This document shows, in pieces, positions 5,917-64,000 of a DNA stretch of 64,000 nt. Numbering within the stretch: position 1 is the stretch's first letter; each line of letters begins with the position of its first letter. The notes beneath the pieces are model-generated. The model had not been told where the DNA came from. It saw nothing but the letters and a program-made list of their open reading frames with translations, and ran no database searches. The translations under genes and the position numbers were made by a program. This stretch comes from Sporomusa termitida (GTDB lineage: Bacteria; Bacillota; Negativicutes; Sporomusales; Sporomusaceae): the NCBI RefSeq assembly GCF_007641255.1, contig NZ_CP036259.1, forward strand, positions 186,001 to 250,000. The letters run 5' to 3'.

Positions 5917-5946
5917 TTGACAATGATTATCAATTTCATGTATTAT
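5917..5946 (+). promoter_or_regulatory. Promoter with Fur box (TonB receptor operon)
   Basis: TTGACA (5917-5922), an 18-bp spacer and TATTAT (5941-5946) form a good sigma-70 promoter. The spacer holds 'tgacaatgattatcaattt', close to the Fur consensus GATAATGATAATCATTATC, so Fe-Fur would block RNA polymerase. Transcription would start near 5953, immediately before the conserved leader element. Confidence 0.8.
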
Positions 5947-5960
5947 TTAATTAAGGACAT

Positions 5961-6016
5961 AGAGGGCCGGGAGCTCCTTCACTAACTTAGCGTAGAGAGG
6001 GGGCTTTTTTGTTTTG
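5961..6016 (+). promoter_or_regulatory. Leader element copy A: GRGCC/GAGCTCC attenuator
   Basis: AGAGGGCC, a 2-nt gap and GAGCTCC start at 5961. AGCTCCTTC (5972-5980) can pair with GAGGGGGCT just before TTTTTT, a 9-bp intrinsic terminator with two G-T pairs. GGGC (5964-5967) can instead pair with GCTC (5973-5976), which would block the terminator stem. The same architecture recurs in three places at 56.5-57.1 kb. It lies about 150 nt upstream of the TonB receptor start, so it should act as a transcription attenuator. Confidence 0.6.
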
Positions 6017-6164: not shown

Positions 6165-8288
6165 ATGAAAAGAAAGATGGTAGTTCTTGCGGCAGCCATC
6201 ATGATGGGGATTTGCGGACCGGTGTCGCCGGCTTCTGCAGAAGAAACAACGATTGAACTGCAGGATTTATATGTGAATCCGGATTACGTGGAGATTGAGC
6301 GTTTAAGAGATACTAAACAAATTATTGTCATCAAAAAGGAAGAGATCCGGGAAAAAGGCTATAAGGGGGTCTCCGATGTTTTAAAAGATATCCCGAGCAT
6401 CTCCGTAGGGGCAACGGGTTTGGGCGACATTGATATTCGCGGGCAGGGATCGGACCAGTCGGTAAGAAATATCCAGGTTTTGCTGGATGGAGCGCCGATC
6501 ACAACCTTTGTCAGTCATCCGTTAAGCACAAATTATGACGTTGTTCCGATTGAGCAGATTGAAAAAATTGAAATCATTCTCGGCGGCGGTTCGGTTCTTT
6601 ACGGCTCGGGCGCTGCCGGCGGAATTATCAATATCACGACGAATCTGCGCAGTATGAATAAACAGAACAAGACAATTTCGTCAGAATGGAATACAGATGG
6701 CTATCGCCTCAATTTCAATTACGGTGAGAAAATCAATGATAAACTGACGACAGAAATCGGCTATTTCAAGCAGGACAGGGATTTATATTTTAAAGATACG
6801 TATAAGGACAGCGAGTATTTTTCCGCCGGCGTTCAGTATGACGCCGGCGAGGGTCAGCGAATAACGTTTCGGATGAGCCATCTGGCGGAAGAAGGTCAGT
6901 ATATTGCCAATATCCAGCCCTACAAAGTGGCGCAGGCGGGAAGAGGCTATGTGCCTGATTATGAAACCTATACCATTGGTTTGGATGCGGACGGACACAA
7001 AATAACGGCAACAAGGAGGCCCTATTTATTTGCCGACAGGTCAATGGATTCATACAACCTTGGCTATCAAAAGAATTTAAGCAGAACGTGGAAATTCAGC
7101 AGCGATCTTTTTTACAATACCGGCGATTTCATGAACAGCAAGTATGAAGATAAAAGAATGGATCATGAAACCAAAGGGGCAAGACTTAAATTTGACCATG
7201 CCTATAGCGAAAAAGGCAACCTGCTGTTTGGGCTGGATATTTACGAACAAACGGCAGAGATTGGCTATAACGACTATAAGCTTGTCAGTTCGGCCCAGAA
7301 GACTTATCGGGCAGTTCCTTTATCTTTTAATTATAATAAAAAAACGAATGCAGCTTATCTGTTACATAATGCAACCAGGGGAAAATACACGTTCACGCAG
7401 GGGCTGCGGCGAGAGAAAATAGACTGGAATTTTGATAAAGTTGGCAATAACATTGACGGGGCAGGAACCTCCGAGCGTTGGAATACGGCTAAAGAGCTGT
7501 CGCTGGCTTACCATTACAATGATACGGGCCGGGTTTATGCCCGGTATGAAAGAGGCTATACCACGCCGGACGGAATCCAGATTACGGACGAAGTAAGGGT
7601 TAATGGCAGCAAAAAATACGTTGGCACCGCGGCCAAAGATGAAATTTTTGATCTCTATGAAATTGGCTTGCGGGATAAGCTTGGCATATCCACTGTTAAT
7701 CTGACTCTGTTCCATTCCAATACGGACAACCAAATGAATCGTCTATACCTTTTTGATGCCAACGGGTCGCTGACGATGCAGACGCTTAATATGCTGCAAA
7801 CCAAGCGTAAAGGCCTGGAACTTTCCCTGCGCCAAAGCTTTGGCAAGCTGGCTGTGCAGGAAGGCTATGCTTATTTGCATGGACAAAGCGATTACACCAG
7901 CTTCGGCCGCAATTTCCTGGAAGAAAATAACGGGAGTATTATTGACTGGACTAAAAGTGGACTTAAAAAGGTTCCCCGGCATAAAGGCATATTGAAAGCC
8001 GATTATGCGTTTGACGATAAGTTGGCGGTAGGGCTTAAATATACCTATTTCGGGAAATACAACAATTTTCTTAAGGATGCCGACAAAGCGGACGGCGGAG
8101 TTATGCAGGCCCATTCGCTGGTTGATCTGGATATGAAATATAAGGTTAGCGAAGATACGGAAGTATATGGCGGCGTAACAAATCTTACCAACCGCAGGTA
8201 CTATGAATATGCGGGTGATTCTTTTGGCACGATTGTTCCAGGCTCTGAGCGTACTTATTATCTCGGCCTGAAATATGCTTTTAATTAG
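6165..8288 (+). CDS. TonB-dependent outer-membrane receptor
   Basis: 707 aa. Signal peptide about 1-26 (cleavage after SPASA), then a plug domain to about residue 165 ('VSDVLKDIPSISV', 'VLLDGAPITT', 'LGGGSVLYGSGAAGGIINI'), then a 22-strand barrel rich in aromatic residues ending in 'YYLGLKYAFN'. Such receptors import iron chelates, haem or cobalamin using TonB energy. The Fur-box promoter and leader copy A point to iron or haem. A tonB gene follows. The start has AGGAGG 7 nt upstream. The ligand cannot be told from sequence. Confidence 0.93.
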   Translation: MKRKMVVLAAAIMMGICGPVSPASAEETTIELQDLYVNPDYVEIERLRDTKQIIVIKKEEIREKGYKGVSDVLKDIPSISVGATGLGDIDIRGQGSDQSVRNIQVLLDGAPITTFVSHPLSTNYDVVPIEQIEKIEIILGGGSVLYGSGAAGGIINITTNLRSMNKQNKTISSEWNTDGYRLNFNYGEKINDKLTTEIGYFKQDRDLYFKDTYKDSEYFSAGVQYDAGEGQRITFRMSHLAEEGQYIANIQPYKVAQAGRGYVPDYETYTIGLDADGHKITATRRPYLFADRSMDSYNLGYQKNLSRTWKFSSDLFYNTGDFMNSKYEDKRMDHETKGARLKFDHAYSEKGNLLFGLDIYEQTAEIGYNDYKLVSSAQKTYRAVPLSFNYNKKTNAAYLLHNATRGKYTFTQGLRREKIDWNFDKVGNNIDGAGTSERWNTAKELSLAYHYNDTGRVYARYERGYTTPDGIQITDEVRVNGSKKYVGTAAKDEIFDLYEIGLRDKLGISTVNLTLFHSNTDNQMNRLYLFDANGSLTMQTLNMLQTKRKGLELSLRQSFGKLAVQEGYAYLHGQSDYTSFGRNFLEENNGSIIDWTKSGLKKVPRHKGILKADYAFDDKLAVGLKYTYFGKYNNFLKDADKADGGVMQAHSLVDLDMKYKVSEDTEVYGGVTNLTNRRYYEYAGDSFGTIVPGSERTYYLGLKYAFN

Positions 8289-8359
8289 GCAAACAGGAGT
8301 AAGATAGGCACGGGATAATTAAATTTCGATTGTTACTGATAGTAAGTAGGTGGTATGTT

Positions 8360-9142
8360 ATGGTGGAATGTGGACACTGGAAGAAATCTTTTTTGTTTTC
8401 CTTAGGGCTGCATGGTGTGGTTATTTTCTTGCTCGCCGGGCTTGGTTTTCCATTTTCGCCGCCGAAAATCAACAATACCGGGGAAATTAATATACAGTTT
8501 ATCCATGTAGGCGAGGAAAGCATGGATGGCAATGGCGGCCTTGCGGAACAGGCACAACATGTTGCCGCTCCGGTCATAGGCAGGCGTGCTGCAGCACCAA
8601 CCACGGTTCCTGGGCATGAAACAGAAAGCAGGGAACGCTTCATACAGCCGGACAACGGAGCGGAACCGGTTCCGCCGGCAGAAAAAAATGCCGGCGCCGG
8701 TGAAATAACCGGCACTAACGCAAATTCAGCCGCGGCAGCAGGCCTATATACCGGTGGCGAAGCGGGAACCGCCACTCAAGCCGGGGGGCAGGGTGCGGGC
8801 AAGGGAATTTTTGGCAACGGCAATTTTTTGGCCAATGGCGATGGCAGTTATACGGCATTGCAGGCCGAAGGAATATCGTATACGATTATCCGCGATGCTG
8901 ATGCCAAGTATCCGGAAGAGGCCCGTTCTATTGGCTACAGCCGTGTTGTAAGTGTCCAGGCGAAAATTTTAGTGGGCTTGGACGGCTATGTGGAAAATGT
9001 AGAAATATTAAATTCCGTTCCCAACCTTGGCTTTAAGGAGTCCGCATTAAAGGCCCTGCGGAGCATGCAATTTGACCCGATTTATTACAAAAGTCATAAT
9101 GTGAAAATGTATTTTACTAAAAAGATATATTTTCAGCCTTAA
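8360..9142 (+). CDS. tonB: Energy transducer TonB
   Basis: 260 aa from ATG 8360 (AGGTGG 6 nt upstream); an in-frame start at 8330 is possible but has no ribosome site. One membrane anchor lies near residues 10-30, followed by a low-complexity Gly/Ala-rich periplasmic linker and a C-terminal TonB domain (~175-260, 'YPEEARSIGYSRVVSVQAKI' then 'ALKALRSMQFDP'). It couples the inner-membrane proton gradient to the receptor encoded 71 bp upstream, with which it is probably co-transcribed. No exbB or exbD is nearby, so those must be supplied elsewhere. Confidence 0.9.
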   Translation: MVECGHWKKSFLFSLGLHGVVIFLLAGLGFPFSPPKINNTGEINIQFIHVGEESMDGNGGLAEQAQHVAAPVIGRRAAAPTTVPGHETESRERFIQPDNGAEPVPPAEKNAGAGEITGTNANSAAAAGLYTGGEAGTATQAGGQGAGKGIFGNGNFLANGDGSYTALQAEGISYTIIRDADAKYPEEARSIGYSRVVSVQAKILVGLDGYVENVEILNSVPNLGFKESALKALRSMQFDPIYYKSHNVKMYFTKKIYFQP

Positions 9143-14798: not shown

Positions 14799-14940
14799 CG
14801 CAGTGTGAACCTAGTCTTTTTAGCCACTGGCAAATGGGAATTATTCCAATGATTAGATGATGGGAGCCGTATGAGTTGAGAGGCTCAAGTACGGTTCTGA
14901 GAGAGCCTGGGGGTGGAACTCCTCCGGGCTACTTACCCCC
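14799..14940 (+). other. Group II intron 3' end, domains V-VI
   Basis: Directly after the maturase relic, GAGCCGTATGA (14864) and ACGGTTCTGA (14891) form the arms of a domain V-like hairpin, the most conserved intron element. A GC-rich domain VI-like hairpin (~14901-14933) ends at 'ctacttacccc'. With the RT relic this marks an intron that has lost its 5' half. Confidence 0.75.
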
Positions 14941-53433: not shown

Positions 53434-55440
53434 ATGGAGGTTGTACGCTCGGTTTGTCCTTATGATTGTCCTGATGCCTGTGGTCTCCTTGTATTAGTAA
53501 AGGCGGGGAAAGTGGTCAAAGTCCAGGGCGATCCGGATCACACTTTTACCAGGGGCACGCTGTGCCCGAAAATGGCCCATTATGAGCGAACCGTCCACTC
53601 GCCGCAGCGGCTCACAACCCCGTTGCGGCGGCGGGGTGCCAAGGGCAGCGGCAGTTTTGCGCCGGTTTCCTGGGACGAGGCAATTGCCAGCATAACGACA
53701 AAATGGCAGGCGATTATTGAACAGCACGGGCCGGAAGCTATTCTGCCCTATTCTTATGCCGGCACGATGGGGCTTGTACAGCGCAATGCCGGCCACCCGT
53801 TTTTTTACAGTCTGGGGGCTTCACAGCTTGAACGCACAATCTGTTCGCCGGCCAAGGGCTGTGGCTGGAGCGCGGTTATGGGGCAGACAATGGCGCTGCA
53901 TACCCGGGAAATTCATGCCAGCGACCTTATTATTCTCTGGGGCCTTCATGCGCTGGCAACAAACCTTCATATTATGCATGATATACGTATAGCCCGCAAA
54001 CAGGGAGCCCGGGTATGGCTGATTGACACATATGAGAACCCCACTGCCAGGGCCGCCGACTGGCTGATTGTTGTCCGGCCGGGGACAGACGGCGCCCTGG
54101 CGCTGGGAATGCTGCATGTCATCGCCCGGGAAAACCTGGCAGATCAGGATTTTGTCAATCGGTATGTACAAGGGTATGAGGAACTGAAAGCCACTGTCCT
54201 GCCTGAGTATACCCCGGCCGCAGTCAGCCGGATCACCGGCCTTGCCGCTGCGGACATTGAGGAGCTGGCCAGGCTGTATGCCTCGGCCCGGGCCCCGTAC
54301 ATTCAGTTAGGCAGTGGTCTGTCCCGTTATAGCAACGGGGCCATGACCGTGCGGGCTATTGTTTGCCTGCCGGCTGTTGTCGGTGCCTGGGCTAAACCCG
54401 GGGGCGGACTATTCGCCGGTACTTCCACCGGTGCTGCTTTTGACACGCAGGGCGTGACCCGCGAGGATTTTATAAAAAAACCGGCCCGGATCATTAATAT
54501 GAATCAACTGGGCCAGGTGTTAAATGAGACAGGCAAGCCCCCGGTCATGAGCCTGTATGTGTATCACTCCAATCCGGCGGCCATAGCGCCGGATCAGAAT
54601 CAGGTGCTGGCGGGACTGGCCCGGGAGGATTTATTTACGGTTGTGCATGAGCGCTTTTTAACAGATACGGCTAACTATGCCGATATTGTTTTGCCGGCAA
54701 CGACCTCGCTGGAGCATAGTGATATTTACCGGTCCTACGGACATTACGGTGTACAGCGGGCCCGGGCGGTGATACCGGCGGTCGGGCAGGCCAAATCCAA
54801 CTGGGAGGTATTCTGCCTGCTGGCAGCAGCCATGGGATTGCAGCAGTCTTTCTTTGCCCAGTCGGCCGATGATCTGATTGACAGTATGCTGGCCCGGCCG
54901 ACGGCGTGGCTGGCCGGTACGCCGCTGGCAGCGCTGCAGGCCGGATTTCCGGTTGAATTGCCGCTGCCGGCCGGGTATAAGACTGAGTTTAAAACCCCAT
55001 CAGGCAAGATCGAGATTTTAAATACAAGCCAGGCTGAGCCATTGCCGAGGTATACGAAACCCCATGGCGATAAGGCCGGCTTCTGGCTGATCAACGCCCC
55101 TGATCCGCGATTGTTGAACTCTTCCTTTAATGAGCGGGAGGATCTCACCAGGAATGGCAAGATGCGGCTGAAGATGAATCCGGCCGATGCCGGCGGCCAG
55201 GGCCTCCGGGACGGGCAGTTGGTTGTGGCCTATAATGAACGGGGGGAGGTAGCCTTTACCCTGGAAGTCTCATCCGCTGTACCGGCCGGGGTTGTTGTCG
55301 GCGAAGGAGTTTGGTGGCTGCAGCATGTTCCCGGCAGCCGTTCAGTCAATGCCCTGACCTCGCAGCGCCTTACTGACCAGGGGCGGGGCAGTACTTTTTA
55401 TGATGTCAAAGTAAACGTCCGGGCCGCGGCCGTGTCTTAG
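53434..55440 (+). CDS. Molybdopterin-dependent oxidoreductase
   Basis: 668 aa, DMSO reductase superfamily. The N-terminal [4Fe-4S] domain uses CPYDCPDAC and a downstream cysteine in TLCPKM. 'ICSPAKGCGWSAVMG' falls where the Mo/W ligand is expected, and the C-terminal ~100 residues are the molydopterin dinucleotide-binding domain ('LLNSSFNEREDL'). No twin-arginine signal, so cytoplasmic. No Fe-S or membrane partner genes are adjacent. Substrate unknown; formate dehydrogenase-like and thiosulfate/polysulfide-like relatives are possible. GGAGG precedes ATG 53434. Confidence 0.88.
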   Translation: MEVVRSVCPYDCPDACGLLVLVKAGKVVKVQGDPDHTFTRGTLCPKMAHYERTVHSPQRLTTPLRRRGAKGSGSFAPVSWDEAIASITTKWQAIIEQHGPEAILPYSYAGTMGLVQRNAGHPFFYSLGASQLERTICSPAKGCGWSAVMGQTMALHTREIHASDLIILWGLHALATNLHIMHDIRIARKQGARVWLIDTYENPTARAADWLIVVRPGTDGALALGMLHVIARENLADQDFVNRYVQGYEELKATVLPEYTPAAVSRITGLAAADIEELARLYASARAPYIQLGSGLSRYSNGAMTVRAIVCLPAVVGAWAKPGGGLFAGTSTGAAFDTQGVTREDFIKKPARIINMNQLGQVLNETGKPPVMSLYVYHSNPAAIAPDQNQVLAGLAREDLFTVVHERFLTDTANYADIVLPATTSLEHSDIYRSYGHYGVQRARAVIPAVGQAKSNWEVFCLLAAAMGLQQSFFAQSADDLIDSMLARPTAWLAGTPLAALQAGFPVELPLPAGYKTEFKTPSGKIEILNTSQAEPLPRYTKPHGDKAGFWLINAPDPRLLNSSFNEREDLTRNGKMRLKMNPADAGGQGLRDGQLVVAYNERGEVAFTLEVSSAVPAGVVVGEGVWWLQHVPGSRSVNALTSQRLTDQGRGSTFYDVKVNVRAAAVS

Positions 55441-56399
55441 TGTCCGGACTCGGGATAAAACAGATTGGACAGGTAATCGATGGCTTCATCCGCCCGGCTG
55501 GCCGGGTTGACGGCGAACAACTGGTAAGGCAGCTGGTATACCTGTTTTTGCTGCACCGCACTGAGTGTTTGCCAGGAGGGGTGTACCAGCAGCTCATTGC
55601 GGATTTTATCGCTGACTTTGGCTTCATAGCTGTGGCTGATCAGGAGAATCAGGTCCGGCCTGGACCGGGCCGCGAATTCCAGGTTCAGGGGCAGATACTG
55701 CAGGTCCTCGCTGCTCATGGCTGCGGCCACATTGACGGCATTGAGCCGGCGGATGAGATCACCGATAAAGCTGTTGGGCAAGGCCATATAGAATTTTTCC
55801 GGCGAGCCCCAGATAATCAGGACCCGGGGTGAAGGCCTGTTTTTACTTTTGGCCTGGGCTTGCTGTAATCTGCTGTCTAACCGTTCAATAACCCGGCTGG
55901 CCTGGCTGGGGTGATCCGTCAGTTCGCCGTAAAAGCGTAAAGTCTGACTGATATGCTGGAAATTGTCCAGCCGCTGCAGATAGACCGGAATGCCGGCTTG
56001 TTTCAAAGTCGAGAGAATCGGCTGGCGCAGATGAATGTCTGTTGCCAATACGAGGTCGGGTTTTAAAGCGATAATCTGCTCAATATCCGGGCAGGGTGTC
56101 TCACCCACCACCGGGACATCCTTGATTTTTTCCATTAAGTCCGGTGGCAGGGCTGCCGTATTAGGGCGGCCGACCAATTGTCCGCCGGCAGCGTAATATA
56201 AATCAACATTAGAAGGGTTGAGCGCAACCAGCCGCAACGACCTCCCTTTTTTGATTGTCTGTACCAGGTTGCATTTGGGGCACTGGATTTCCACATATTT
56301 GACCTGGCCTTTGAAAAGCAGCCTGTTGCACTTGGGACAACGGCACTCGTTCATAGCTGCCGTATTTAACCTGCCACTGCCGTTAACTGGGGGATGCAT
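55437..56399 (-). CDS. Com-like zinc ribbon fused to a signal-less periplasmic-binding domain
   Basis: 320 aa from ATG 56399 (AAGGAGG 11 nt upstream; TTG 56408 possible). Residues 18-45 form a Com-type zinc ribbon: C21xxC24, 15 residues, C40xxC43, with 'CNRLLFKG' and 'VEIQC'. Residues ~55-318 are a class III binding-protein domain closely similar to the protein at 57982 ('NFQHISQTLRFYGELT', 'VLIIWGSPEKFYMA', 'LPYQLFAVNPA'). There is no signal peptide, lipobox or membrane helix, so it should be cytoplasmic. A ligand-sensing regulator is inferred. The gene has a Fur-box promoter and leader copy D. Its stop overlaps that of the convergent molybdoenzyme gene. Confidence 0.85.
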   Translation of the reverse strand: MHPPVNGSGRLNTAAMNECRCPKCNRLLFKGQVKYVEIQCPKCNLVQTIKKGRSLRLVALNPSNVDLYYAAGGQLVGRPNTAALPPDLMEKIKDVPVVGETPCPDIEQIIALKPDLVLATDIHLRQPILSTLKQAGIPVYLQRLDNFQHISQTLRFYGELTDHPSQASRVIERLDSRLQQAQAKSKNRPSPRVLIIWGSPEKFYMALPNSFIGDLIRRLNAVNVAAAMSSEDLQYLPLNLEFAARSRPDLILLISHSYEAKVSDKIRNELLVHPSWQTLSAVQQKQVYQLPYQLFAVNPASRADEAIDYLSNLFYPESGH

Positions 56400-56429: not shown

Positions 56430-56568
56430 ATAAAGAAAACACGGCTGGCGCCGGGCCTTTGGCGAAAGCGTAAGCCAAGGTTGCCCCTTATCCGGGGAAA
56501 GTTATACTTTCTTTCAGGATAAAAAAATTCCGCGTGAAATAACATTCACCCGGAGCTCAAGGCCCTCT
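56430..56568 (-). promoter_or_regulatory. Leader copy D: GRGCC/GAGCTCC attenuator plus downstream module
   Basis: On the minus strand AGAGGGCC-TT-GAGCTCC begins at 56568. TCCGGGTGAA pairs with TTCACGCGGA (one mismatch), then a T7 run: an intrinsic terminator. GGGC and GCTC can pair as a competing hairpin. Further on, a second module contains the palindrome GAAAGT-ATA-ACTTTC, 'ccccggataaggg', and a GGCT...AGCC stem followed by GTGTTTTCTTT. The module recurs at 57131-57220. Confidence 0.6.
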
Positions 56569-56570
56569 TA

Positions 56571-56618
56571 ATAATCATTCTCAATGTTATTATAAAAAAG
56601 CCGGAACATTCTTGTCAA
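56571..56618 (-). promoter_or_regulatory. Promoter with Fur box (Com-SBP fusion gene)
   Basis: On the minus strand TTGACA (56618-56613), an 18-bp spacer and TATAAT (56594-56589) are a near-perfect sigma-70 promoter. The sequence just after the -10, 'attgagaatgattatt' (56586-56571), is a good Fur box covering the start site. Confidence 0.85.
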
Positions 56619-56705
56619 GCGGGCTGGCGGCGTTGCGGCCGCAAAATGTGGCCGACGGCCAAAAAAGCAGGCAGAGCAGCTTTGTGCCATAGGTTAAAAA
56701 AACAT

Positions 56706-56734
56706 TTGACATTGATAATGGTTATCAATATACT
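56706..56734 (+). promoter_or_regulatory. Promoter with Fur box (com-tonB-haem operon)
   Basis: TTGACA (56706-56711), a 17-bp spacer and TATACT (56729-56734). The spacer is ATTGATAA-TGGT-TATCAAT, a strong palindromic Fur site. It is divergent from the fusion-gene promoter, 88 bp away. Confidence 0.88.
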
Positions 56735-56743
56735 ATAACTATA

Positions 56744-56800
56744 AGAGAGCCACTGAGAGCTCCGTGACGGGTAATATGGCACGGGGCTTTATTGTTAGGC
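56744..56800 (+). promoter_or_regulatory. Leader copy B: GRGCC/GAGCTCC attenuator
   Basis: AGAGAGCC-ACTGA-GAGCTCC begins at 56744, just after the predicted start site. AGCTCCGTG pairs with CACGGGGCT (9 bp, one G-T), followed by TTATTGTT. GAGC (56747-56750) can instead pair with GCTC (56759-56762). It sits about 60 nt before the com start. Confidence 0.6.
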
Positions 56801-56860
56801 ACTATTTCTTTGTGACTGCAGGAATCCTGATTCCCCTGATTAATTATTGGAGTGATGCAC

Positions 56861-57049
56861 ATGGAAGTCAAACCCAAAAATCTGCGGCAGACAAAATCAA
56901 AATTGCCGGAAGTGCGTTGTTTTCAGTGCAATAAGTTATTGTTCCTTGGCATTGCTGAGAATGTCGAGATCAAGTGCTCCCGTTGCGGGACTGTTCAGTG
57001 TATCGGCAGTTGCAGGCAAGAGGCGAAAGTACATATCAGCAGCTGGTAA
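56861..57049 (+). CDS. Com-like zinc-ribbon protein
   Basis: 62 aa from ATG 56861 (TTGGAG 9 nt upstream; ATG 56855 and GTG 56852 are alternatives). Cysteines C20xxC23, 15 residues, C39xxC42, with 'CNKLLF' and 'VEIKC', match the zinc ribbon of phage Mu Com and of the fusion protein encoded on the other strand; C47 and C51 are extra. Mu Com binds RNA to switch on mom translation, so RNA binding is likely. It lies between two copies of the leader element, which are its obvious candidate targets. The basic N-terminus (KPKNLRQTKSK) fits nucleic-acid binding. Confidence 0.82.
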   Translation: MEVKPKNLRQTKSKLPEVRCFQCNKLLFLGIAENVEIKCSRCGTVQCIGSCRQEAKVHISSW

Positions 57050-57080
57050 GTTGTTAAACTAGCGGTAGTCATTTACATAA

Positions 57081-57130
57081 CCTCAGAGAGCCTAGAGCTC
57101 CGCGGCCGTACAGTGCCCGGAGCTTTATTT
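57081..57130 (+). promoter_or_regulatory. Leader copy C: GRGCC/GAGCTCC attenuator inside the operon
   Basis: AGAGAGCC-TA-GAGCTCC begins at 57085. AGCTCCG pairs with CGGAGCT (perfect 7 bp), followed by TTATTTTATC. GAGC can pair with GCTC instead. No Fur box or good promoter lies directly upstream, so it should act on transcripts reading through from com, gating expression of tonB and the haem genes. Confidence 0.6.
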
Positions 57131-57254
57131 TATCCTGCAGGAAAGTATAACTTTCCCCGGATAAGGGCACCAGCGGCTTCCGCCTTCGTTAAGACTTGGC
57201 GCAAGCCGTATTTCTTTATTTTTCCTAAGATGTTCATTAAAGTGAGGTGATAGT
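57131..57254 (+). promoter_or_regulatory. Second leader module shared with copy D
   Basis: Positions 57141-57167 are identical over 27 nt to the minus strand at 56511-56485. The segment holds the palindrome GAAAGT-ATA-ACTTTC, then a CGGCTT...AAGCCG stem followed by TATTTCTTTATTTTT, a second terminator-like structure. GTGAGGTGA then precedes the tonB start. Confidence 0.55.
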
Positions 57255-57938
57255 GTGACCTATCAGCCATGCTGGTACAAAGCAGTCAGTCTTTCCTGTG
57301 CTGTCCATCTGGTTTTCATTTTGCTGCTGGTAATGGTTATGGGGCAGTTAGACCGGCCGTTAGCATTGCCTGAACGGTACCTTACTGTTGAACTTACTGA
57401 AATAGCCGGCTGTACCTATGCTGACAGTGTACCGGCACCGGCGGCTGTTTCCCCGGTGAGTCCTCAGCTTGATCAGCCACAGCCAAGTGCGGCCCGCCCG
57501 GCGGCCGACCCCGCCGCTGCGCCGGCGCCGGCTGCCGGGGCAGAGATAGCTGCGGTAACCGCAACCGCCGGGACTGCCGGCAGCGGCGAAGGGCCGGCCC
57601 CTCAGACTGCTGCCGCTGTTGCGGGACCGGCGGCTCCGGCAGCCAGGACGGCGGGCGGCAGGGAGCTTGACAGCATTATTAACGGCTTCCTGTCGCAAAT
57701 TGAAAAATATAAAGAATACCCGTATATTGCCAGGCGCCGGGGACAGGAAGGGACCGTTACGGTGGCAGTTCGCCTGAGTGCGGCCGGTGAACTGGCCGGA
57801 GCGCAGGTGGTGCGTTCCTCCGGGATCGCGGCTCTGGACGAGGCGGCTTTGACACTGGTACGTAAGGTTTGCCCTTTTGCGCATAACGCCGGCCGCAGCA
57901 TTGCGATGAACATCCCGATCGCTTATCAGATTGAGTAA
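57255..57938 (+). CDS. tonB: Energy transducer TonB (second copy)
   Basis: 227 aa, GTG start. Membrane anchor ~11-33, an Ala/Pro-rich periplasmic linker (~60-140), and a C-terminal TonB domain ('KYKEYPYIARRRGQEGTVTVAVRL' in part, 'LVRKVCPFAH'). It energises outer-membrane haem or siderophore receptors. It is the second gene of the com operon, followed 43 bp later by the binding protein. Confidence 0.9.
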   Translation: MTYQPCWYKAVSLSCAVHLVFILLLVMVMGQLDRPLALPERYLTVELTEIAGCTYADSVPAPAAVSPVSPQLDQPQPSAARPAADPAAAPAPAAGAEIAAVTATAGTAGSGEGPAPQTAAAVAGPAAPAARTAGGRELDSIINGFLSQIEKYKEYPYIARRRGQEGTVTVAVRLSAAGELAGAQVVRSSGIAALDEAALTLVRKVCPFAHNAGRSIAMNIPIAYQIE

Positions 57939-57981: not shown

Positions 57982-58959
57982 ATGAGTCAACACAGCAATA
58001 GAATAACGTTCGGCATGATTGGTTTATTATTGGTGGTCAGCATCCTGTTTTTATTAAAAGGCCAGGCACAGCCTGCGGATAATCAGGCACCGGCCCGCTA
58101 CCAGGTAACCGACAGTGCCGGCCGACAAGTGGAAATACCCCGCCGGCCCCAGCGGGTGATTGTTTTAAATGCATCAAACCTGGAACTGTTTTATGCTGTC
58201 GGCGGGACTGTGGTTGGACGTCCCACGACTGAGGCGCTGCCTGAGGCTGTTAAGGCTGCTGTTCGGCAGGTGCCGGCAATTGGTATTACTCCCAATCCCA
58301 ATATTGAACAAATTGTGGCTCTCAGGCCGGATTTGATTCTGGGAGTAAATATGCCTTTTCATCACAACCTGATCCCGGTGCTGAATAAGGCCGGTATTCC
58401 CATCCTGCTGCAGGCCCTGGAAAATTATCAGCAGATTATCGATACATTGCATTTTTATGGTGAATTAACAGGTCAGCCGGAACAGGCTGCTGCTGTCATT
58501 GCCGGGATTGAAGCCCGTTATGAGACGGTTGTCAAGAATACTAAAAACCATCCGGCCCCTAAGGTTGTGATCGTGTGGGGGTCGCCGGAAAGTTTCCATA
58601 TGGCAACCGCCCGCAGTTTTACCGGTGATCTGGTTAAAAGGCTGGGCGCAGTCAATGTGGCCGATGCAGGGGACCATAGTGGCGGACAGATGGGCTATGT
58701 GCCGTTAAGTATGGAGTATGTGGCCAAGCAAAATCCGGATAAGATTTTTTTGATAACCCATAGCCCGGACGAAAAAACCAATGGTAAAATCCGGAACGAT
58801 CTGGTAAACCATCCTGCCTGGCGGGGGTTAAAGGCAGTAGCAACCAACCAGGTCCACTTGCTGCCCTATAACCTGTTTGCCGTAAATCCCGGTACTCAGG
58901 TGGGCGAGGCGCTGACCGTGCTGGCCGGTTTCTTATATCCGGAGGTGACTCAACCGTGA
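57982..58959 (+). CDS. Haem/iron ABC substrate-binding protein
   Basis: 325 aa. N-terminal membrane anchor (~9-28) without a lipobox, then a class III binding fold: 'RPQRVIVLNASNLELFYAVGG', 'RPDLILGVNMP', 'VVIVWGSPESFHMA', 'HLLPYNLFAVNPG'. The operon context (FecCD permease, ATPase, haem-degrading radical SAM enzyme) points to haem. It is the close paralogue of the Com-fused cytoplasmic protein at 55437. Confidence 0.9.
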   Translation: MSQHSNRITFGMIGLLLVVSILFLLKGQAQPADNQAPARYQVTDSAGRQVEIPRRPQRVIVLNASNLELFYAVGGTVVGRPTTEALPEAVKAAVRQVPAIGITPNPNIEQIVALRPDLILGVNMPFHHNLIPVLNKAGIPILLQALENYQQIIDTLHFYGELTGQPEQAAAVIAGIEARYETVVKNTKNHPAPKVVIVWGSPESFHMATARSFTGDLVKRLGAVNVADAGDHSGGQMGYVPLSMEYVAKQNPDKIFLITHSPDEKTNGKIRNDLVNHPAWRGLKAVATNQVHLLPYNLFAVNPGTQVGEALTVLAGFLYPEVTQP

Positions 58960-59960
58960 GGGAATTAACCACAGATCCCCGGGCCGGCCGGCGGACGGCT
59001 ATCAGTATTTCAGGCCTGGCAGCGTTGGTGGCGGCCCTGTTAATCGGGATCAGGGTGGGGGCTGTGCCTGTCAGTATGGGCGATATCTGGCATGTGTTCA
59101 GTGCCCCGGCCGGTAACGAGGCTTACCAGATTATTTATAACATCCGGGTGCCGCGGGTGCTTACCGGTGCCTTGACCGGGATCAACCTGGCGCTGGCCGG
59201 CTGTATCCTGCAGGGGGTATTGCGCAACCCGCTGGCTGATCCCGGCATTATCGGTGTATCGGCCGGAGCCGGTCTGGCCGCGATGGCGGTAATGATTTTA
59301 TGGCCCGGGTTGACGGCATTGGTGCCGGCCGTTGCTTTTGCCGGCGCGCTGATGGCTGCCGGTATCGTGTTTATGTTATCCTGGGACCGGGGCGTACAGC
59401 CATTGCGGCTGATCCTGGCCGGCGTGGCCCTGGCAGCATTTTTTGGCGGCGGCATGAGTGGGCTTATGGTTTTTCATTCTGACAAAGTACAGGGGGCCGT
59501 CAATTGGCTGGCCGGGGGTTTCCAGGGGCGAAGCTGGGATCATGTCAGCATGATCCTGCCTTACAGTTGTATCGGCATAGTGGGGGCGCTGCTGTCTTAC
59601 CGGTATCTGAATGCGCTGCAATTGGGGGACGATATCGCGAAAGGACTGGGCATTAAGGTGGAAACTGCGCGGTTTTCCCTGGTTGCGCTGGCGGCCCTGC
59701 TGGCGGCTTCGGCTGTTAGTGTGGCCGGTCTGCTGGGCTTCGTCGGGCTGATCATTCCTCATATAACCCGGATGCTGGTCGGCTCGGATTTTGAATACCT
59801 GCTGCCCTGTGCGGCGGTACTGGGGGCTACGCTGGTGGTAGCCGCCGATACGGTAGCCCGCACGGTATTCAGCCCGGTGGAAGTACCGGTGGGAATTTTT
59901 ATGGCGTTCCTGGGGGCTCCGTTTTTTATTTTTCTACTGCAAAGGGGGATGCGGCGATGA
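58956..59960 (+). CDS. FecCD-type ABC permease
   Basis: 334 aa, GTG start overlapping the previous stop by 4 bp. About 9-10 helices with 'IRVPRVLTGALTGINLALAGCILQGVLRNPLADPGIIGVSAGAG' (in part) and 'GLLGFVGLIIPHITRMLVG'. It forms the inner-membrane channel with the next gene's ATPase. Confidence 0.93.
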   Translation: MRELTTDPRAGRRTAISISGLAALVAALLIGIRVGAVPVSMGDIWHVFSAPAGNEAYQIIYNIRVPRVLTGALTGINLALAGCILQGVLRNPLADPGIIGVSAGAGLAAMAVMILWPGLTALVPAVAFAGALMAAGIVFMLSWDRGVQPLRLILAGVALAAFFGGGMSGLMVFHSDKVQGAVNWLAGGFQGRSWDHVSMILPYSCIGIVGALLSYRYLNALQLGDDIAKGLGIKVETARFSLVALAALLAASAVSVAGLLGFVGLIIPHITRMLVGSDFEYLLPCAAVLGATLVVAADTVARTVFSPVEVPVGIFMAFLGAPFFIFLLQRGMRR

Positions 59961-60763
59961 AACATACACTGGAAGCTCAGGCTGTCAAACTCGGTTATGG
60001 CGACAAAGTCATTGCTCCGTCTATCGATCTGGTGCTCAACAAACCGGAGATTATTGCTATTATTGGCCCGAACGGCTCCGGCAAATCGACGCTGTTAAAA
60101 GCATTGAGCCGGTTATTGACGCCCTTAGCGGGGTCCGTATTGCTGAACGGTAAGGATATTCACCGGCTGCCTCCCCGGGAGGTGGCCCAAGTTATGGCCA
60201 TTCTGCCCCAGTCGGTACAGGCGCCGGGGGATATGACTGTCTGTGATCTGGTCGCCTATGGGCGTTTGCCTTATAAAAAGATGTTTGAACAGCTGGCAGA
60301 TACGGATAAGGCTTGCATGGCGGCGGCGCTGGCTGCTACCGGCATGCAGACCATGCAGCAGCGCCGGCTCGACAGTCTGTCAGGCGGCGAACGGCAGCGG
60401 GCCTGGCTGGCTATGGCGCTGGCCCAGCAGCCGCGTTTGCTGCTGTTGGATGAGCCTACAACCTATCTGGATATTCATCACCAGCTCGAATTAATGAAAC
60501 TGATCCGTAACCTGCACCGGGACCGAGGGATTACTATTGTGATGGTACTGCATGATTTAAACCATGCCGCCCGGTTCAGTCAGCGCATTATTGCCGTTAA
60601 AGAAGGGATAATATTTGCCGACGGGCCGGTGCCGGCGGTCTTTACCGCTGAAAATCTGCAGGCGCTGTATGGGGTTGAAACCACGGTTATGGCGGTTGAG
60701 CAAGGAGGTAGCACGCATCTTGTCTGTTTGCCCCATGATACCTGCCTGGCCCCGGGAGCCTGA
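59957..60763 (+). CDS. FecE-type ABC transporter ATPase
   Basis: 268 aa. Walker A GPNGSGKST, signature LSGGERQR, Walker B LLLLDEPTTYLD and the His-switch 'VLHDLNHAARF'. It powers the haem/iron importer; as the only FecE-type ATPase in the window it could also serve the orphan permease at 45283. Overlaps the permease stop by 4 bp. Confidence 0.94.
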   Translation: MKHTLEAQAVKLGYGDKVIAPSIDLVLNKPEIIAIIGPNGSGKSTLLKALSRLLTPLAGSVLLNGKDIHRLPPREVAQVMAILPQSVQAPGDMTVCDLVAYGRLPYKKMFEQLADTDKACMAAALAATGMQTMQQRRLDSLSGGERQRAWLAMALAQQPRLLLLDEPTTYLDIHHQLELMKLIRNLHRDRGITIVMVLHDLNHAARFSQRIIAVKEGIIFADGPVPAVFTAENLQALYGVETTVMAVEQGGSTHLVCLPHDTCLAPGA

Positions 60764-61496
60764 TGCGGCCCTGTCCTTGCACTGTCTTTGCAAAACCTAT
60801 GACCGGCAACAGGTGTTGTCTGATATCTCCCTGGCGGTAGCGCCAGGTGAGGTTTTTGGGCTGCTTGGTCCCAACGGTGCCGGCAAAACCACGCTGATGA
60901 AGCTGATTGCCGGCCTGAGCCGGCCTGATTCCGGCCGGCTCACTATCTTTGGCCGGGATGGCGGCAGGGGCCGGCAGAGCATCAAGCATATGCTGGCGCT
61001 GGTAGCCCAGGACAATAATCTGGAACGGGAATTCACGGTGCAGGAGGCCCTGCTTACCTATGCCTGCCTGTATGGAGTTGCCAGCCCGCGGCAGCGGGTG
61101 GCCGAGATTGTGCAGGAGTTTGACCTGACAGCCATGCTTGCCAAGCGGGTGGCTGTGCTATCCGGCGGCATGGCCCGGCGCTTGTTGATTGCGAGGGCAC
61201 TGCTGCCTGCCCCCCGGTTAGTGCTGCTGGATGAGCCGACAGTGGGGCTTGATCCGGATGTGCGGCAGGATATCTGGGCGGTGATCAGACGGCTGGCGGC
61301 GGCCGGGACGACTGTGTTCATGACAACCCATTATATGGAGGAAGCGGAGCAGCTTTGCCGGCGGGTGGCCCTGTTAAAAGCAGGCCGGGTTGTTGCTGCC
61401 GGTACGCCGGCGGCGCTGGCCCTATTGGCTGACACCGGTGAGCCGCCAAGCCTGGAGGCCGCTTTTCTCCGCCTGGTGCGGGAGGCAGGGGTATGA
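60735..61496 (+). CDS. ABC-2 type exporter ATPase
   Basis: 253 aa from ATG 60735; TTG 60720, with AAGGAGG 11 nt upstream, is a real alternative. Walker A GPNGAGKTT, signature LSGGMARRL and Walker B LVLLDEPTVGLD: the CcmA/NodI/DrrA group, which pairs with ABC-2 membrane proteins. It overlaps the FecE gene by 29 bp, so it is translationally linked to haem import. It may export a toxic haem-derived product or a metallophore. Confidence 0.9.
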   Translation: MIPAWPREPDAALSLHCLCKTYDRQQVLSDISLAVAPGEVFGLLGPNGAGKTTLMKLIAGLSRPDSGRLTIFGRDGGRGRQSIKHMLALVAQDNNLEREFTVQEALLTYACLYGVASPRQRVAEIVQEFDLTAMLAKRVAVLSGGMARRLLIARALLPAPRLVLLDEPTVGLDPDVRQDIWAVIRRLAAAGTTVFMTTHYMEEAEQLCRRVALLKAGRVVAAGTPAALALLADTGEPPSLEAAFLRLVREAGV

Positions 61497-62230
61497 GCGG
61501 CTGGCTGGCTGTGTACGGGCGGGAAATGCTGCTGATGCAGAAAAAAATCGGCAAACTGGGTTATGTTTTTTCCTCGGTGATGTTTCCGGTTATTTATTTA
61601 TTTGCTTTTGGTCTGGGGCTGGGCTCCCGGCTGGAGGTCAGCGGCGGCTATGTACCATTTCTGGCTACCGGGATTGCCAGCCTGACCGTGATGCTTAATG
61701 CCTTTCAGCAGACCTCCCTGTCTGTAAGTGCCGGGCGCCTGTATTTTCATACCTTTCAAACCGTGTTTTTAAGCCCTGTCCCGCCGCTGCAGGTTGTTGG
61801 CGGTATTGCCCTGGCCGGTATAACCCGCGGGTTAATCATGGGAGGCCTGGTGTATGCGGTTGCCTGGCTGGCATTCGGTGTGCCGCCGCTGTCCGGCATT
61901 GCCGTAACTGCCCTGCTGTTGTCGGCCTTCTGTTTTTCCGCGCTGGGTATTGTTCTCGGCTTGGCTATTGCCGATCCTGATGAAATATCACTTGTTAATA
62001 ATTTTCTGATCACGCCGATGATTTTCTTCTGCGGTTCCTTTTTTCCTGTTCAGAATTTACCGGTTGCTCTGCAGGCGGTTGTGTCGATATTGCCGTTAAG
62101 TATGGCTAACAGCCTGGTACGTCTGACCGCCTGGAACGGCCACGCTGCCGGCCAGGCCGCGGCCTTGGCGTTAATGGGGCTGGGCCTGCTGCTGTGGGGG
62201 GCCGGCAGCCTGAAAAAATACAGTGAATAA
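61493..62230 (+). CDS. ABC-2 type membrane permease
   Basis: 245 aa, six hydrophobic segments. 'GRLYFHTFQTVFLSPVPPLQVVGGIALAGITRG' (in part) and the C-terminal 'FFCGSFFPVQNLPVALQAVVSILPLS' (in part) match the NodJ/DrrB-type half-exporters. Partner of the preceding ATPase (4-bp overlap). Substrate unknown. Confidence 0.9.
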   Translation: MSGWLAVYGREMLLMQKKIGKLGYVFSSVMFPVIYLFAFGLGLGSRLEVSGGYVPFLATGIASLTVMLNAFQQTSLSVSAGRLYFHTFQTVFLSPVPPLQVVGGIALAGITRGLIMGGLVYAVAWLAFGVPPLSGIAVTALLLSAFCFSALGIVLGLAIADPDEISLVNNFLITPMIFFCGSFFPVQNLPVALQAVVSILPLSMANSLVRLTAWNGHAAGQAAALALMGLGLLLWGAGSLKKYSE

Positions 62231-62252
62231 TAATTTTTGCGGGGGGTTAAAA

Positions 62253-62771
62253 ATGAAGACATTGATTGCCTATTCCAGTTTGACCGGCAATACCCGGAAA
62301 GTGGCGGCAGCCATCCAGGCGGTGTTCGGCCCGGCGGCGGATTTGTATCCGGTTGAATCGGCACCGTCACCGGCAGAGTATGATTTTGTGGTTGTTGGTT
62401 TTTGGGTTGACAAAGGCACGGCCGATAAAAAGGCCCAGGATTTTTTAAAAACAATTGCGAACAAGCCTGTCGCCTTATTTGCCACGCTGGGGGCCTATCC
62501 TGATTCCGAGCATGCCGCTGACAGCCTGAAGAACGCGGCGGCATTTCTGGCCGGCAGCAACCGGCTGGCCGGCACCTTTATCTGCCAGGGGAAAATCGAT
62601 CCCCGGTTAATCGAGCAGTTCAAAAATATGCCGGCCAACCACCCCCATGCCCTTACGCCGGAGCGGCTGGCGCGTTATGAGGAAGCGGCCAAACATCCTG
62701 ACAGCGCGGACCTGCAGGCTGCCCAGGCGGTTTTTACAGATATAAAAAGGCAATGGATGAAAGCGAGGTGA
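62253..62771 (+). CDS. Flavodoxin family protein of the haem locus
   Basis: 172 aa from ATG 62253 (GGGGGG upstream). The FMN phosphate loop is 'SSLTGNTRKVA'; 'FVVVGFWVDKGTADKKAQDFL' (in part) and 'ALFATLGAYPDSEHA' match the flavodoxin-like proteins commonly paired with anaerobic haem-degrading or bilin-reducing enzymes. It probably delivers electrons to the radical SAM enzyme encoded next. Confidence 0.87.
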   Translation: MKTLIAYSSLTGNTRKVAAAIQAVFGPAADLYPVESAPSPAEYDFVVVGFWVDKGTADKKAQDFLKTIANKPVALFATLGAYPDSEHAADSLKNAAAFLAGSNRLAGTFICQGKIDPRLIEQFKNMPANHPHALTPERLARYEEAAKHPDSADLQAAQAVFTDIKRQWMKAR

Positions 62772-62778
62772 TGGATGC

Positions 62779-64000
62779 TTGCGGGAAACCAAATTAAAGC
62801 AGATTCTGGCGGCAATGGATGCGCAGCAGTACGCCCTGACGGTCGGGACGGCAACCGGTGAGGCCCTGGCGGCTGCGTTTGCCAAACGCCGGGTGGTCCA
62901 TGCCGGGGTCCGGGGGAAACCGCTGGGCCCGGGGGAATGGCAGACTGCCTGGCAGTCTTTGCTGCGGCAGGCAACAAAAGCTAAACAGCGGGCGGCCTAC
63001 ATCCATATTCCGTTTTGCCGGCACCGCTGCCTGTATTGCGGCTTTTTTCAAAACTATGCGGATGAAGACCGGGAAACCGCGTATATTGACAGCCTGATTA
63101 AAGAACTGCAGCTGAGCCGGGACTGCCGCTATCTGGCCAGCGGGCCGGTCAACGCGGTATTTATAGGCGGCGGCACCCCCAGTACACTGGCACCCCATAA
63201 TATTGCCAGACTGCTGGACGCTGTCCGCGCTTGCCTGCCGCTAGCCAATGATTATGAGTTAACCCTCGAAGGCAGGATTAATGATCTGGAACCGGCCCGG
63301 ATTGAAGCCTGGCTGGCGCATGGGGTAAACCGCGTTTCCATCGGGGTACAGTCCTTTGATACCGGGGTGCGGCGTTCGGTCGGCCGCCTGGATGACACGG
63401 CCACTATTTTGAAGCGGCTGGAACTGTTGTCCGGCTATAATCAGGCCACGGTAATTATTGATTTGATTTATGGCCTGCCCAACCAAACAAATGAAGTTTG
63501 GGCCAGTGATATCAATTTGCTCAAGACGGCGGCGATTGACGGCTTAGACCTGTATCAGCTGAATATTTACCAGGGCAGCGCCCTGCAGCAGGCCATCCAG
63601 GCCGGTAAACTGCCGCCGGCAGCAACCACGGCCGAACAAGCCGGCATGTTTGCCGCGGCCGGGGCAACCTTAACGGCTAATGCCTTTTCCCGGCTCAGTA
63701 TCTGCCACTGGGGAAAAACAAACCGGGAGCGCAGTATGTATAATACCCTTACCAAAGCCGGACGTCATGTAATCCCGTTTGGCGCCGGTGCCGGCGGCAA
63801 TATTGGCGGGGCAACCATGATGCTGAACCGTGACGTGGCCGCCTATATTAAGAGTATTGAACAAGGTCATAAACCGATTGCCGCCATGCTGCTGCTGCCA
63901 GCCGGCAGTGAGCTGCACAACGCTGTTGTCGGCCAGTTGGAGCGGGGGTATTTAAATCTTAAGGGGCTGGCAGTCCGCTACGGGCCCGAGGTTCTGGAAT
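62779..64000 (+). CDS. hutW: Radical SAM haem-utilisation protein, HutW/ChuW type (partial)
   Basis: Open from TTG 62779 (GAGGTG 8 nt upstream) to the window end, 407 codons with no stop, so the C-terminus is missing. The radical SAM cluster motif is CRHRCLYCGFF after 'AAYIHIPF'; 'VFIGGGTPSTL' and 'SIGVQSFDTGVRRSVGR' are HemN-like. The N-terminal extension and 'ICHWGKTNRERSMYNTLTKAG' (in part) are the features of HutW/ChuW, which open the haem ring anaerobically and release iron. HemN/HemW is less likely given the haem import operon. Confidence 0.87.
   Translation, partial: MRETKLKQILAAMDAQQYALTVGTATGEALAAAFAKRRVVHAGVRGKPLGPGEWQTAWQSLLRQATKAKQRAAYIHIPFCRHRCLYCGFFQNYADEDRETAYIDSLIKELQLSRDCRYLASGPVNAVFIGGGTPSTLAPHNIARLLDAVRACLPLANDYELTLEGRINDLEPARIEAWLAHGVNRVSIGVQSFDTGVRRSVGRLDDTATILKRLELLSGYNQATVIIDLIYGLPNQTNEVWASDINLLKTAAIDGLDLYQLNIYQGSALQQAIQAGKLPPAATTAEQAGMFAAAGATLTANAFSRLSICHWGKTNRERSMYNTLTKAGRHVIPFGAGAGGNIGGATMMLNRDVAAYIKSIEQGHKPIAAMLLLPAGSELHNAVVGQLERGYLNLKGLAVRYGPEVLE

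Follow-up and report, generated by a model that had tools for sequence, protein, structure and literature searches.

For decades, Com has been described as controlling a single gene of phage Mu. Antiterminators of the BglG/LicT type act by stabilising a short RAT hairpin overlapping the terminator's 5' arm, and so make read-through depend on a signal. The RNA target of a Mu-like Com was defined by SELEX as NGAGNNCC(N)2-3GAGNNCCNN, that is, two motif copies that form a 3-4 bp stem closed by a C-G pair (PMC6483171). In the same study, the main contact of Com was mapped to the loop element CC(N)2-3GAG of the folded hairpin, and the 3'-half motif alone was bound weakly. In Pseudomonas, Com-like genes stand before bacteriocin, tailocin-lysis and levansucrase genes, in a role that was left open by the authors (PMC6240691). 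Our literature search retrieved nothing on a chromosomal Com associated with haem or TonB, a weak negative given that subscription papers and preprints were thinly covered, and no description of a Com sensor fusion. In this study, we analysed a window of 64,000 nucleotides from the genome of Sporomusa termitida (NZ_CP036259.1, positions 186,001 to 250,000), in which a repeated leader lies upstream of Com-associated iron and haem genes.

Results

The preliminary description of this window had reported four copies of the leader (A, B, C and D), and each of them lies where it had been placed. The window contains four matches to AGAGRGCC-N1-8-GAGCTCC, against 0.00 expected from shuffled sequence. 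With the stem halves in square brackets, the Com box of copy A reads AGA[GGGC]CGGGA[GCUC]C (5961..5977, plus strand) and that of copy D reads AGA[GGGC]CUUGA[GCUC]C (56552..56568, minus strand, read from 56568 to 56552). Copy B has a longer loop, AGA[GAGC]CACUGAGA[GCUC]C (56744..56763, plus strand), and copy C, AGA[GAGC]CUAGA[GCUC]C (57085..57101, plus strand), is operon-internal, in the gap between com and tonB. The exact pattern occurs five times in the full assembly (5.3 Mb, two contigs), and the reversed control pattern never does. The fifth copy, E, is found at window coordinate 64198, 198 bp beyond the window end, between hutW and a receptor gene. A relaxed variant, GAGAGCT..GGAGCTC, adds three further copies in a second operon near 4.36-4.37 Mb, and a covariance model run on the assembly recovered precisely these eight copies, five exact and three variant. 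The half-motifs are separated by 2 nt in A, C and D, by 3 nt in E and by 5 nt in B. All eight copies share the general form GA[GRGC]Y-loop-GA[GCUC]C, a short hairpin. For the R/T pair, copies A and D have G-U, and B and C have A-U, as previously noted; E has A-U as well.

In all eight copies, the 3' half of the box doubles as the 5' arm of an intrinsic terminator. Folding places terminators with a U-tract at 5969..6011 (A, plus strand, overlapping the 3' half of the box), 56756..56793 (B, plus strand), 57093..57133 (C, plus strand) and 56525..56558 (D, minus strand, the weakest of the set). When the window copies are folded unaided, the terminator is the best structure, and the GRGC/GCUC hairpin, with its CnnGA loop, is an exclusive alternative that has one arm in common with it. 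These data support the earlier claim that GRGC/GCTC pairing excludes the terminator stem, and the arrangement is that expected of an intrinsic-terminator attenuator. Forcing the short hairpin over the terminator costs between 2 kcal/mol, the margin of the weak terminator D, and 11 kcal/mol (C), so that read-through needs help. The next start codons of the window lie further downstream of the terminator stem. Filing the leaders as a mom-type translational switch was rejected, because the window stem is a terminator and does not lie over a start codon or ribosome site. The downstream sequence common to C and D was also rejected as a part of the leader, since it is a dispersed repeat (at least about 75 bp, GAAAGTATAACTTTCCCCGGATAAGGG...) with some 36 copies in the genome, inserted right behind terminators D (56450-56525, minus strand) and C (57128-57188, plus strand). 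Rfam, searched at curated and loose thresholds, returned no relevant family for the leader. The Rfam search also located a group II intron domain at window positions 14862-14937.

Copies B and D directly follow Fur-box promoters, as had been proposed, and the same is true of copy A. Promoter A (5917..5946, plus strand) comprises a -35 element TTGACA (5917-5922), the Fur-like repeat TGACAATGATTATCA (5918-5932) and a -10 element TATTAT (5941-5946). Promoter B (56706..56734, plus strand) comprises TTGACA (56706-56711), TGATAATGGTTATCA (56713-56727) and TATACT (56729-56734), and promoter D (56569..56618, minus strand) comprises TTGACA (56618-56613), TATAAT (56594-56589) and, last in order, TGAGAATGATTATTA (56583-56569). 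These Fur-like inverted repeats, all within 50 nt, score 13 of 14 in A and B and 12 of 14 in D; the three copies of the second operon have one that scores 12 of 14 at about 100 nt. Six of the eight copies are thus downstream of Fur-type promoters. The operon-internal copies C and E, scored in the same way, have no Fur-like repeat. The leaders with such a repeat at the promoter are putative members of a Fur regulon.

Copy A is predicted to control the gene of a TonB-dependent receptor (6165..8288), which is followed by that of a TonB-type protein (8330..9142), both on the plus strand and assigned by Pfam. The gene read from D (55437..56399, minus strand; open reading frame to 56408, TTG start) encodes a protein, here termed Com-PBP, in which profile searches and a structure model identify a Com zinc ribbon (about 56253-56351) and a Peripla_BP_2 domain without an export signal. 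Between B and C lies the gene of a small Com of about 62-65 residues with a Cys4 zinc ribbon (56852..57049, plus strand), whose start may be GTG 56852, ATG 56855 or ATG 56861. Both this protein and the first domain of Com-PBP are Com zinc ribbons (PF10122). Three loci of the genome exceed the PF10122 cut-off of 22.9 bits (28.2, 26.2 and 25.2 bits), the small Com among them, and the whole Com-PBP protein falls slightly below it in hmmscan (21.7 bits). The ribbon consists of two CxxC pairs, and its four cysteines are invariant in the 16 Com-PBPs aligned. Downstream of C, the plus strand carries tonB (57255..57938, Pfam), an exported substrate-binding protein of the haem type whose closest solved structure is IsdE (57982..58959, profile and structure comparison), a FecCD permease and ATPase importer (58956..60763, Pfam) and a second ABC pair made up of an ATPase and an ABC-2 membrane protein (60615..62230, Pfam). 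The remainder, 62223..64000, is occupied by a flavodoxin-like gene (62223-62771) and a HutW-like radical SAM gene that runs from 62779 to 64185, past the window. Copy E and then receptor and ChaN genes follow just beyond the window end.

No described RNA with this consensus had been known to the preliminary description. The consensus is, in fact, that of the RNA selected by a Mu-like Com in SELEX (PMC6483171), on the plan of the Mu mom hairpin. Copies A, C and D (gap 2) and E (gap 3) agree with GAGNNCC-N2-3-GAGNNCC letter for letter, and B (gap 5) fits loosely, the SELEX range being 2-3. The structural plan of the SELEX and mom targets, a 3-4 bp stem and a loop that is closed by C-G and holds CC(N)2-3GAG, is also found; variants retain the stem, with U-A closing in L060, L068 and L069. 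The Mu mom hairpin, GA[AUGC]CUGCGA[GCAU]CCC, shows the same plan with another stem and continues into the mom inhibitory stem. The plan recurs close behind the Com zinc ribbons of phages B3 (GAGGGCCGAGAGCCTC), DVM-2008 (GAAGGCCGTTGAGCCTC) and Chuche (GAGAGCCATCGAGCACC). The leader motif was defined without knowledge of the SELEX motif, so the agreement between the two is independent. To judge by its sequence, the leader RNA is no new kind of RNA; it is the Com/mom operator in a variant that is chromosomal and transcriptional.

PF10122 is present in 27 of 380 Negativicutes genomes, and these 27 span some sixteen families. A covariance-model search for homologues upstream of iron and haem genes had been suggested beforehand, and our model R1 found them in 21 of the 380 genomes, all among the 27 with Com, and in none of the 353 Com-less genomes of the class (Fisher p ~2e-29, which is too small a value because genomes were counted and not independent events). 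A MAFFT alignment of 50 sites mis-registers the loop and was not used for pair counts; the covariance model derived from it, with the terminator as its structure, served for searching. In 150 relatives, the exact pattern was found in 21 of 26 Com genomes as against 10 of 124 others (p 9e-14). Five of these ten matches were opened and discarded, all of them lying inside coding sequence without a terminator. Haem loci that have the same transport genes and no Com near by (in Selenomonas, Centipeda, Veillonella and others) showed no intergenic box with a terminator.

Most Com genes of the class are surrounded by the set ExbB-ExbD-TonB-Com-PBP-FecCD-ATPase-(two ABC genes)-flavodoxin-HutW-receptor-ChaN. 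Several lineages have the small Com together with a divergent Com-PBP, like the window, and others have one of the two. The gene behind or around the box encodes Com-PBP, an exported PBP, a receptor, ExbB, TonB or a small Com for 61 of 63 distinct boxes with a U-tract, and a Fur-like repeat lies at most 130 nt upstream of 42 of the 63, compared with 2% of random stretches. At nearly all Negativicutes sites, as in the window, the box merges into a G+C-rich hairpin followed by a U-tract; usually, another 60-200 nt pass before the next start codon. Divergent small Coms were also seen outside haem loci, with no box near by (L040 8719-8916; L053 8144-8320).

Covariation in the GRGC/GCTC pair, proposed earlier as a check on the pairing, appears as compensated stem changes. 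In L060, L068 and L069 the box reads GA[GAGU]C..GA[ACUC]C, with the closing C-G pair replaced by U-A, and in L063 and L067 it reads GA[AAGC]C..GA[GCUU]C, with the outer G-C pair replaced by A-U. Since the two structures have one arm in common, the 3' arm of the terminator must change along with the stem; this is seen in L060, L063, L067 and L068, where it still pairs with the changed arm (e.g. AACUCC/GGAGUU). Several compensated variants stand directly after Fur promoters, ahead of the first gene. A scan that demands pairing is circular for covariation; hence, a second count was made on boxes identified by sequence-only context. In Negativicutes, 5 of 24 distinct boxes paired at all four positions against a shuffled mean of 1.08 (maximum 5), a result that is no more than suggestive, as the stem sequence is nearly fixed there. 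The corresponding count in other phyla was 9 of 27, against 0.89 in shuffles (maximum 5).

Com-PBP lacks the hydrophobic N-terminus that all its exported relatives have. Its structure model has a mean pLDDT of 82 and a pTM of 0.76, the Com part being weaker. The nearest structures to its binding domain, by fold and by sequence (E 1e-24), are the haem lipoprotein IsdE, solved with haem, and a Listeria homologue. All 16 aligned Com-PBPs have kept the histidine of the IsdE 'PHG' region, which is residue 259 in the translated frame. Unlike IsdE and other haem-binding lipoproteins, Com-PBP is fused to Com, carries no export signal and has not kept the region of the haem-ligand methionine. Haem is coordinated by Met79 and His229 in HtsA, a streptococcal relative (PMC4684392). 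The ligand of Com-PBP is likely to be haem-like.

The leaders of the second Com-PBP operon, in the genome of S. termitida and in L066, have U as the first loop base (GAGRGCU). The two forms, GAGRGCU and GAGRGCC, hint that the two Com-PBP paralogues may use separate operators. The second-operon leaders also have an extra conserved block 5' of the box (TGCACTGCCT..GCAGAGTGTAAAAAGAGRGCT; L010 10457-10600 and 17355-17500, L107 8942, L066 8230-8398), possibly a second hairpin. Two very large TonB-dependent receptors of about 1600 aa are encoded in the same genome, behind or near leaders of this second type (L010 10591-15381; L107 3851-8713).

A scan of named genomes also revealed, outside the class, small Com genes in Nitrospirae, Nitrospinae, Deltaproteobacteria, SAR324 and others, many of them with the same box and other stems. 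Box and terminator occur together as GAGGCUUACGAAGCCC and its relatives (five loci), GAGGCCCACGAGGCCC and GAGACUUUCGAAGUCC, and the reversed control gave 0. In Deltaproteobacteria MAGs they precede FeoB (L170 671) and cell-wall-degrading, endolysin-like genes (L161 4794, L164 9206, L168 16117 and, weakly, L162). Before the TonB-dependent receptors of L146 (6476), L147 (5358) and L163 (10280), the 3' half of the box is able to pair with the ribosome-binding region, and these boxes are likely a translational form in the mode of Mu.

Discussion

The leaders of S. termitida resemble the phage Mu com/mom system in the Cys4 zinc ribbon, in the hairpin GA[N4]C-loop-GA[N4]C, in the proximity of com to its target and in a hairpin 3' flank that is part of a downstream inhibitory stem. 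In Mu, that stem lies over the start codon of a gene for phage DNA modification; here, it is a terminator in chromosomal haem and iron operons, with several copies per operon, Fur promoters and a Com fused to a ligand-binding domain. The Pseudomonas Com-like genes (PMC6240691) likewise lie outside Mu and adjoin possible target genes, but the genes and the phylum are others and no RNA operator was described there. The predicted action of Com, stabilising a hairpin that overlaps a terminator arm, is reminiscent of BglG/LicT and the RAT, although protein and RNA sequence are unrelated and PTS domains are absent here.

We consider it likely that these leaders are transcription attenuators operated by Com, in which Com binding would favour the antiterminator and Com-PBP would make the response depend on haem or a related compound. 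The predicted RNA target and the logic of a regulated terminator are well supported by the sequence comparisons; Com binding to these RNAs, its antiterminating effect and the haem-like ligand are what we infer. At low iron, Fur would permit initiation and, by default, the downstream terminator would form, because GAGCUCC finds a more stable pairing partner downstream than in the GRGC upstream of it. The Com zinc ribbon would bind the hairpin GA[GRGC]C-nn-GA[GCUC]C and sequester the 5' arm of the terminator, and RNA polymerase would then transcribe com, tonB, the haem importer, the haem-degradation genes and the receptor. The internal copies C and E would repeat the same test ahead of tonB and the receptor, respectively. 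The com leader would itself be one of these attenuators, and a positive autoregulation of Com would follow. Com-PBP, with an IsdE-like binding domain and without an export signal, would sense haem, a related tetrapyrrole or an iron complex in the cytoplasm and relay its state to the Com domain. In this sense, Fur would act on initiation, Com on elongation, and Com-PBP, where present, would provide the ligand input. As a guess on physiological grounds, we lean slightly towards read-through being favoured by the form that has bound the ligand, these genes being useful only when haem is available.

Com could also act with the opposite sign, holding the 5' half unpaired and so leaving GAGCUCC free for the terminator, in which case it would repress the operon in a negative feedback. 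The com gene belongs to the operon and is preceded by its own leader, a position consistent with positive and negative feedback alike. However, the contact mapped for Com is the loop CC(N)2-3GAG of the folded hairpin, with weak binding of the 3'-half motif alone (PMC6483171), the compensated changes preserve stem pairing, and Mu Com is an activator, all of which makes repression unlikely. A mainly translational action, as in Mu, with U-tract hairpins of little weight, would agree with those boxes of other phyla in which pairing between the 3' half and the ribosome-binding region is possible (L146, L147, L163). It is very doubtful for the window and for nearly all Negativicutes, where the boxes run into a U-tract hairpin and the start usually comes 60-200 nt later.

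Letters conserved beyond the stems, together with the metal and haem genes downstream, might instead point to a riboswitch that binds iron, haem or another ligand directly, with Com as a mere neighbour. We deem this highly improbable, as the conserved part measures about 17 nt, coincides with a known protein-binding motif, matches no Rfam family and is missing where Com is absent, in 353 genomes as well as at haem loci. Finally, the dispersed repeat that C and D have in common just downstream could mean that the conserved letters are left over from a duplication or a mobile repeat and that the leaders are plain, constitutive terminators that insulate or tune expression. Yet the repeat has about 36 copies against eight of the leader, and the upstream half of the box, needless for a terminator, is kept across many families. 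Given also the compensated changes and the strict co-occurrence with Com, we attach very little probability to this explanation.

The preliminary description had envisaged recognition of the leader by a protein or a ligand. Distribution, compensated changes and gene context support a regulated terminator that a protein recognises and that is tied to Com and to Fur-controlled haem and iron genes. Of the refuting outcomes named beforehand, neither an absence of further homologues nor an absence of covariation was seen. Com had been named as a neighbour, and the RNA motif had not been tied to it. Its interpretation thus holds in part, the Com-PBP fusion, the compensated variants and the other phyla having escaped it.

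In a wider perspective, we see an even chance that several phyla have recruited a phage-type, RNA-binding zinc ribbon to regulate genes for iron, haem and prophage lysis at the RNA level, through one hairpin placed on terminators or ribosome sites. In Negativicutes, a cytosolic haem-binding fusion would then read the tetrapyrrole and switch terminators, as a protein counterpart of a haem riboswitch. If true, a set of chromosomal genes with a defined RNA operator would come under Com, which would also gain a second mode of action, antitermination, and a sensor fusion. The system would offer an easily tested operator of 17 nt and a natural, possibly ligand-gated, predicted RNA-binding protein. 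Moreover, it points to a way in which anaerobes, Sporomusa and Pelosinus among them, may adjust the uptake and the anaerobic breakdown of haem at a level below Fur.
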